A stretch of DNA of 32,088 nucleotides, from the NCBI GenBank assembly GCA_937949965.1, contig CALFBF010000041.1:1-32088 (forward strand), read 5' to 3'. The stretch's first letter is position 1, and every line of letters begins with the position of its first letter. Shown here piece after piece: positions 30,080 to 32,088 of this stretch. Origin of the DNA: an uncultured Roseibacillus sp. (GTDB lineage Bacteria > Verrucomicrobiota > Verrucomicrobiia > Verrucomicrobiales > Akkermansiaceae). Below the pieces are notes generated by a model. The model was not told the origin of the DNA. It saw nothing but the letters and a program-made list of their open reading frames with translations, and searched no databases. The position numbers were made by a program, and so were the translations under genes.

Positions 30080-31372
30080 ATGAATCTATCTGCCCTCCCC
30101 TCCGTGGAAAAACTCGCACAGCAACTCGTCAAGGAGTCGCAACTGCCCAAATCACTCGTGACCGGGTTCATCAAACGCCAAGTGGGCAGCTATCGTGAGA
30201 GGCTGATGGGCGGCGAGGAACTGACTCGCGAGGACATCACTGCCGAGATTACTACCTCCCTCGATACCTTCGAAAGTTCACGTTTGCAACCCGTCCTCAA
30301 TGGCACAGGTATTCTCATTCACACCAATCTCGGGCGCTCCCCTCTGGGCCACCGCGCGGCTCAGGCAGTCTACGATGTTGCGACAAACTACTGTAATCTC
30401 GAAATCGACCTCACGACAGGAAAACGAGGCAAACGTGGCGGTTTTCTTGAAGAATCTCTCGCCATCCTAGTTGAAGCCGAAGCTGCGACTGTGGTGAACA
30501 ACTGTGCCGCTTCGCTCGTACTCACTCTGCGCGCGCTCATTGCGGAAGGAAAGAATGAGGTCATCGTTTCGCGGGGCGAACTCGTTGAGATTGGTGGCGG
30601 CTTCCGTATTCCCGATATTCTCGAAACCTCTGGTGCGAAGCTTGTCGAAGTTGGAGCTACTAATAAGACTCATCTCCACGATTACGAAAAAGCGATCACT
30701 GAACGAACTGCGCTCATCCTCAAAGTCCATCGTTCGAACTTTTATCTCGGCGGTTTCACGGGAGAACCCGAGTTAGAGAACCTCTTCCAACTCGCGAAAG
30801 ACCACGACATTCCTCTCGTGGAAGATCTCGGTTCGGGAGCGCTCATGCACACCGATCATCTCGCCCCTATCGAACACGAACCTCGACCACAAGAACAGCT
30901 TGGACGCGGGATTGAGCTCGTCCTTTTCTCCGGTGACAAACTCCTGGGAGGTCCTCAGGCCGGCATCATCGCAGGGCGGAAAGACTTGGTCGAAAAGATT
31001 AAAAAAGAACCCTTCTATCGCGCTGTGCGACCTGACAAACTGATTCTAACAGCTCTCCAAGAAGTAGTGGTCGATTACCTCACCCTCAAAGATAACCCCG
31101 AGCGACTCGACCTCGTGCCCGTGCTCGAAATGCTCAATCAAACTCCCGAAGACCTCCAAGAAAAAGCTCAAGCTCTGCAGGAGAAAATTTCAGACGAAAG
31201 CCAGATTGTTCCCACTACAGGAGCCACTGGTGGCGGGACAATGCCTCAGGCGCAATTCCCTTCCATCGCGGTGCAAACGGCAAAAAAACCAGAACTGCCG
31301 CATCTCTTTACCCGAGTCGAGGATGATAAGCATCACACCGATCCTCGCACTCTGCGTAACCTTCCCGAGTAA
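30080..31372 (+). CDS. selA: L-seryl-tRNA(Sec) selenium transferase
   Basis: SelA is a PLP enzyme that turns seryl-tRNA(Sec) into selenocysteyl-tRNA(Sec) using selenophosphate. The 430-residue protein shows the family core: PVLNGTGILIHTNLGRSPL (71-89), VNNCAASLVLTL (139-150), VSRGELVEIGGGFRIPDI (163-180), KVHRSNFYLGGFTG (215-228), VEDLGSGAL and the PLP-lysine motif FSGDKLLGGPQAG with K287. It is about 30 residues shorter than E. coli SelA; the end VEDDKHHTDPRTLRNLPE lacks the usual hydrophobic strand after the EDD motif. Its presence means the organism makes selenocysteine, and the next gene, 81 bases on, contains an in-frame TGA. selB, selC and selD are not in the window. Confidence 0.95.
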   Translation: MNLSALPSVEKLAQQLVKESQLPKSLVTGFIKRQVGSYRERLMGGEELTREDITAEITTSLDTFESSRLQPVLNGTGILIHTNLGRSPLGHRAAQAVYDVATNYCNLEIDLTTGKRGKRGGFLEESLAILVEAEAATVVNNCAASLVLTLRALIAEGKNEVIVSRGELVEIGGGFRIPDILETSGAKLVEVGATNKTHLHDYEKAITERTALILKVHRSNFYLGGFTGEPELENLFQLAKDHDIPLVEDLGSGALMHTDHLAPIEHEPRPQEQLGRGIELVLFSGDKLLGGPQAGIIAGRKDLVEKIKKEPFYRAVRPDKLILTALQEVVVDYLTLKDNPERLDLVPVLEMLNQTPEDLQEKAQALQEKISDESQIVPTTGATGGGTMPQAQFPSIAVQTAKKPELPHLFTRVEDDKHHTDPRTLRNLPE

Positions 31373-31453: not shown

Positions 31454-32088
31454 ATGAAACTTCTTTTCTCCCTGCTATTCCTCTCACTGATGGCGTGCAG
31501 CTCCCAAGAAAAACAGGCCCCTGAACTGGGTCAGGTGAAATGGCAAACTGACCACGACAAGGCGCTCGCCCTCTCTGCCGAAACAGGCAAACCCGTCTTC
31601 TTGCTCTTCCAAGAAGTCCCCGGATGAGGACCGTGCAAAGACTTCGGGTCCGAAGTCCTCAGCCATCCCCTCCTTGTCGAAGCGATTGAGACTGATTTCA
31701 TCCCTCTCCTCATCCGCAATAACAAACCTGGACGCGAAGCAGCTCTCCTCAAGAAATACAAAGAGCCTTCTTGGAACTTCCCCGTCGTTCGTTTCGTCGA
31801 CGGCAAAGGCACTGACATCGTGCCTCGCCGCGATCAGCAGTTCCACATTTCACAGCTCTTGCCTCGTATCAAAAGCGCGCTTGCGAAAACCAAACGTGAA
31901 TCCGAGATTGTCCCTCTCATCGAACCAGAAACGGTGAGAACCTCGAAAATCGCTCTCTCACAGCACTGCTTCTGGACCGGAGAACTCGCAATTGGCAGTG
32001 TTCCAGGTGTTATCAAAACAGAAGCAGGTTGGTTAGATGGCCGCGAAGTGACTCTTGCTCACTTCGATCCCAAGCAAGTGACTGCCGA
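31454..32088 (+). CDS. Selenoprotein: lipid-anchored thioredoxin (UGPC) fused to MsrA-like domain, cut by window end
   Basis: Translation from ATG 31454 gives a lipoprotein signal peptide (lipobox LMAC, lipidated C15), then a thioredoxin-like domain. Codon 58 is TGA (31625-31627) within VPG-TGA-GPCKDF, so read as selenocysteine the redox motif is U58-G-P-C61, the counterpart of CGPC. The fold continues with SEVLSHPLLVEAIE and a cis-Pro candidate P110 (NFPVVRF). From about residue 165 an MsrA-like domain starts: HCFWTGE with C172, then GVIKTEAGW and EVTLAHFDP. The frame stays open for 211 codons to the edge. A SECIS-type hairpin follows the TGA, and selA is immediately upstream. From memory it resembles a family NCBI calls VPGUxxT thioredoxin-like (seleno)proteins, but with Cys at the last position. 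Probable role: periplasmic repair or sensing of oxidised protein. A plain nonsense mutation is the alternative. Confidence 0.88.
31625..31661 (+). promoter_or_regulatory. Bacterial SECIS element
   Basis: Beginning at the in-frame TGA, GACTTCG (31640-31646) pairs perfectly with CGAAGTC (31651-31657) around the tetraloop GGTC (31647-31650). Below it TGAG (31625-31628) can pair with CTCA (31658-31661), leaving an 11-base bulge on the left. The apical loop starts 19 bases after the TGA and contains GGU, as in the E. coli fdhF SECIS; both features are what SelB needs to bind and to deliver Sec-tRNA. The hairpin is inside the coding sequence (codons 58-70), as usual in bacteria. Confidence 0.85.

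Follow-up and report, generated by a model that had tools for sequence, protein, structure and literature searches.

An in-frame TGA at the redox site of a Roseibacillus thioredoxin-like gene: a probable selenocysteine codon in a member of the VPGUxxT type 2 family

NCBIfam family NF041383 (VPGUxxT family thioredoxin-like (seleno)protein, type 2; curated cut-off 275 bits) is the described family to which the gene analyzed here belongs. It is already listed among the known prokaryotic selenoproteins in a 2026 review, as OS_HP5, for which a 2007 paper on the Olavius algarvensis symbiont is cited (PMC13188914). The gene lies at the end of a stretch of 32,088 nt (the window, G000:C41:1-32088), which is the whole of contig C41 in a 2.73-Mb Roseibacillus assembly of 166 contigs. 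When its TGA is read as a residue, the encoded fragment matches NF041383 with an E-value of 1.4e-78. The score of 264.5 bits, slightly under the cut-off, covers profile positions 1-192 of 287, with the fragment ending at the contig end; the complete homolog from Roseibacillus persicicus scores 325.7 bits, above the cut-off. The first-pass annotation had called this an unrecognised selenoprotein gene, a label that has to be dropped, as the family is already catalogued. The gene is a fresh, solid member of that family rather than the first of a new one, and its novelty is therefore modest.

The VPG-U motif is common to the family and the window protein (VPG-TGA in the window; VPG or IPG followed by U or C in the 72 homologs described below). 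The family name specifies UxxT, whereas all 72 homologs read UxxC or CxxC, including those that score above the NF041383 cut-off, and none has Thr three residues after the U. It is the name that disagrees with the members found here and not the model, of which Thr is not a known requirement. The type 1 family (NF041382) has the thioredoxin domain in common with the window protein (119.9 bits). This score is far under its cut-off of 350, and the match covers the thioredoxin part alone. An Rfam search of the window gave no matches, and a PDB search with the protein gave a weak match only, to the putative disulfide isomerase 2kuc (E 0.01). The features of the locus are as follows, all on the forward strand.

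30080..31372, forward: selA, L-seryl-tRNA(Sec) selenium transferase (NCBIfam TIGR00474, 460.7 bits, cut-off 267.9)
31454..32088, forward: gene of the VPGUxxT type 2 selenoprotein family (truncated 3' by the contig end, with 211 of about 290 codons present)
31454..31498, forward: predicted signal peptide with lipobox LMA-C, Cys15 at 31496-31498 (by eye from the translation)
31541..31801, forward: thioredoxin-like domain, Pfam Thioredoxin_7 (PF13899, 40.4 bits, cut-off 27, residues 30-116)
31625..31627, forward: TGA, codon 58, predicted selenocysteine (its U/C state across homologs tracks the presence of selA)
31634..31636, forward: putative resolving Cys61 of the UxxC motif (Cys in 72/72 homologs)
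31640..31657, forward: candidate bacterial SECIS hairpin (stem 31640-31646/31651-31657, apical loop GGUC 31647-31650)
31949..32086, forward: start of the MsrA-like half-domain (hhalign versus MsrA, 97.8%; CFW Cys172 at 31967-31969)

The frame from the ATG at 31454 to the window end contains a single stop, the TGA of codon 58, in the peptide context FQEVPG-U-GPC. The window is an entire contig, so the gene breaks off where the contig stops, and its last quarter falls outside. The R. persicicus homolog (291 codons) is 68% identical over the shared part, and its record (NZ_BMXI01000021.1) has TGA at the equivalent codon. After the TGA, 104 of 153 residues are identical between the two, and nucleotide differences at the first, second and third codon positions number 46, 18 and 94; by these measures, the downstream stretch is coding. 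Plain ORF calling (at least 100 aa) returns no forward ORF at this locus and only an antisense frame at 31484-31846. The first-pass annotation had described this single-TGA frame (VPG-U-GPC), coding-quality sequence beyond the TGA and a gene start missed by standard ORF calling, and all three points were confirmed.

A relative of the gene is present in 71 of 387 genomes of the order. Together with phylum-wide matches, these order-level relatives gave 72 distinct genes that were read. At the TGA site, 34 of them have TGA, 38 have Cys and none has any other residue. A protein search with TGA read as U had been proposed, with U or C expected in homologs, and this is its outcome. Since 33 other, independent genomes have the identical TGA, chance and sequencing error are excluded, and the codon is not a misread TGC or TGT. 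The gene selA is present in 32 of 34 genomes with the TGA form and in 3 of 35 with the Cys form (Fisher p=7e-14, as with the other p-value below an overstatement of the evidence, because the counts treat related genomes as independent). Completeness is 86% and 72% for the two TGA-form genomes that lack selA. Despite the overstated p-values, the association of TGA with selA is close to complete in the genomes compared. The combination of selA with the Cys form occurs in genomes G454, G527 and G580. Two homologs (G506:C122:20797-21393 and G443:C88:92508-92924) have internal TAG/TAA stops and are probably pseudogenes; both genomes are without selA.

In the window, selA ends at 31372, 81 bases upstream of the ATG at 31454, as annotated initially, and the TIGR00474 match supports its identity. 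Linkage of the gene to selA was found in three genomes, all of this genus; for most other relatives, this result is bounded by the 1.5 kb read on each side. Absence of selB, selC and selD had been named as a refutation, and the claim withstood this as well as the other sequence-based tests. The genome has selB (340.9 bits in a profile search, over the cut-off) and a tRNA-Sec with anticodon UCA (TCA in DNA). For selD, the profile search of the genome gave only ThiL and PurM matches. With SelD of G001, from the same genus, as the query, 24 matching residues were found, right up against the terminal base of contig C32:

G000:C32:15564-15647, minus strand, last 84 bases of the contig: putative C-terminal end of selD, 27 residues, matching SelD of G001

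The frame of this fragment reads ILHQAGAPIVQKIGVLTAQGSSAVEVA-stop, versus ILHEAGAPIVVQIGSLQSQQGSNVIVS-stop in the relative, with the stop at the equivalent place. By itself, the 27-residue end has an E-value of 0.2, and no neighbor of the fragment matches the selD neighborhoods of three relatives. We take it to be the end of a selD gene that was cut by the assembly. In three relatives of the genus, selD itself contains one in-frame TGA. It should be noted that a profile search overlooks the end on C32 and would wrongly call selD absent.

The genome codes for a second probable selenoprotein, a methionine sulfoxide reductase homolog (MsrA, G000:C135:183-599) with a TGA replacing the catalytic Cys (G-U-F-W). 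Two further genomes of the genus have the same arrangement (L150 and L151, the window genome being L152). As judged from its sequence, this Sec-MsrA is separate evidence for the use of Sec by this genome. A hairpin is located downstream of this MsrA TGA (L150, L151 and L152, the latter examined as G000:C135:1-3000).

The SECIS of Escherichia coli fdhF carries GGUC at its hairpin tip. The window hairpin shares this tip, but its stem sequence is unrelated and no bulged U was identified. It reads GACUUCG-GGUC-CGAAGUC (7 bp, -8.3 kcal/mol, z -2.67), and the spacing from the UGA to the GGUC loop is 19 nt. Published limits for bacterial SECIS elements are a loop of 3-9 nt, a stem of 4-16 bp, a G in the first two loop positions, a spacing of 16-37 nt and an energy of -7.5 or lower (PMC13188914), and the window hairpin falls inside all of them. 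GGTC occurs within 40 nt after the site in 34/34 TGA genes versus 6/38 Cys genes, and a GGUC-tipped stem of at least 5 bp in 29/34 versus 0/38 (p=2e-15, with the same overstatement). Upon synonymous recoding of the TGA genes, such a hairpin arises at a mean rate of 1.7%. Sixteen genes have the tip at offset 22; their second stem pair is split evenly between C-G (eight) and T-A (eight), and further pairs are Watson-Crick in some genes and G-T in others. For the window by itself, synonymous recoding yields a GGUC hairpin in 3%, and the 40 nt after the TGA are, as a whole, not unusually stable (z -0.74). Thus, the case for a SECIS rests on the cross-genome comparison. The unconstrained minimum-energy fold of these 40 nt differs from the GGUC hairpin.

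The product is predicted to be an exported lipoprotein. The thioredoxin redox site of the initial description is upheld by Thioredoxin_7 and UxxC; the protein is, however, not a plain thioredoxin, as an MsrA-like half-domain is also present at the C-terminal side. This half-domain is not named in the NF041383 description. The C-terminal part of 48 long homologs was aligned to MsrA of the same order by hhalign (97.8% probability, E 7.8e-13), with CFW...E...GV...TEAG...EV...YDP as aligned features. In the window protein, Pfam PMSR (PF01625) reaches 18.1 bits, under its cut-off of 23.7, and on this evidence the homology to MsrA is remote only. In MsrA, including the selenoprotein MsrA with GUFW, the matching region is the N-terminal half, and CFW and the Glu are shared; the CFW residue is Cys in the window protein and Sec in GUFW. 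The half-domain is not a complete MsrA domain: the catalytic Cys is kept, but it lacks the second half of MsrA as well as an internal stretch of 17 columns (NPTY...tGH). Of the active-site residues of E. coli MsrA, it retains the catalytic Cys and Glu94 and lacks Tyr82, Asp129 and Tyr134, which makes true MsrA activity doubtful. A structure prediction from a two-sequence alignment had a mean pLDDT of 32.5, and the model was discarded.

Relatives vary in this part of the protein. A short Sec form, with an exported thioredoxin domain only and about 100 residues after the Sec, occurs in 22 relatives (including L034, L035, L098 and L100-L117) and is devoid of the MsrA-like part. Two short forms scored against NF041383 reached 207 and 216 bits, under the cut-off, so that the current NCBI model would not name them. 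In L118 (G476), a short Sec form is followed by stop codons, and homology to the longer protein continues beyond these, which suggests a long form whose C-terminal domain has been, or is being, lost. L027 (G002, same genus) has retained the Sec thioredoxin but lost both the CFW Cys and the later Cys.

We are highly confident that the window gene encodes a selenoprotein with TGA codon 58 as selenocysteine; sequence evidence could hardly make this reading firmer. The evidence present in the sequence itself consists of the Sec codon, the SECIS, the machinery, the UxxC site and the MsrA homology; insertion of Sec at the TGA, as proposed initially, is what we infer from the U/C-only homologs, the SECIS and the machinery. 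If the TGA were a true stop, due to a nonsense mutation or a sequencing error in an ordinary Cys thioredoxin gene, the gene would end after 57 codons. One base change takes TGC or TGT to TGA and the assembly is fragmented, but the recurrence of this TGA at the equivalent codon in a total of 34 genomes, the coding conservation downstream, the link between TGA state and selA, and the confinement of the SECIS to TGA genes make this highly improbable, and sequencing error or a pseudogene was rejected on these grounds. Even less probable is a TGA that is read as an ordinary sense codon (e.g., for Trp) or a stop that is bypassed without Sec. While read-through of the frame alone is silent on the inserted residue, homologs have Cys and never Trp or another residue, the other window genes have intact frames and normal stops when translated with table 11, and the genome has the Sec machinery. 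Recoding to Trp was rejected for these reasons.

With selenocysteine as the preferred reading, SelB with Sec-tRNA(UCA) would decode UGA codon 58, directed by the GGUC-tipped SECIS hairpin with its loop 19 nt past the UGA. The product would be a thioredoxin-like protein with a Sec-x-x-Cys site, exported and probably lipid-anchored, and its fusion partner would be a shortened MsrA-like domain in which the CFW Cys and the Glu are retained. The selenolate may attack an oxidized sulfur (a disulfide or sulfenic acid), and Cys61 would then resolve the selenenylsulfide. A role as an envelope thiol/selenol reductase, with the reaction presumed to run in this direction, is somewhat favored. Oxidized Cys172 of the MsrA-like domain is a plausible target in cis, but we consider this assignment unlikely to be correct. 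The same applies to the speculation of a self-contained envelope repair unit, in which the Sec thioredoxin domain acts in cis to recycle a minimal domain derived from MsrA and pared down to the catalytic Cys-Phe-Trp and Glu, its substrate differing from, or being simpler than, that of full MsrA. The competing view, which leaves the selenoprotein itself untouched and concerns only the part in cis, is that the half-domain is a non-redox relic and that the thioredoxin acts on unrelated envelope proteins. This is quite possible, if short of an even chance: the half-domain lacks the 17-column MsrA stretch and everything after the first half, the 22 short Sec forms do without it, and the loss of the CFW Cys in L027 means that a target in cis cannot be essential in all members. 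On the other hand, the CFW Cys is kept in 47/48 long homologs and the Glu in 48/48, which points to a retained function; a further Cys is present in 41/48.

The small new points are the MsrA-like half-domain, the existence in relatives of a short Sec form with the thioredoxin part alone, and the selA linkage confined to this genus. The gene adds a well-supported selenoprotein in Verrucomicrobiota, and the literature searched contained little on the selenoproteins of that group. The family offers a clean natural exchange between Sec and Cys, which tracks whether the Sec machinery and the SECIS have been gained or lost. For a family that is named only as thioredoxin-like, the MsrA-like half-domain provides a concrete lead to function.
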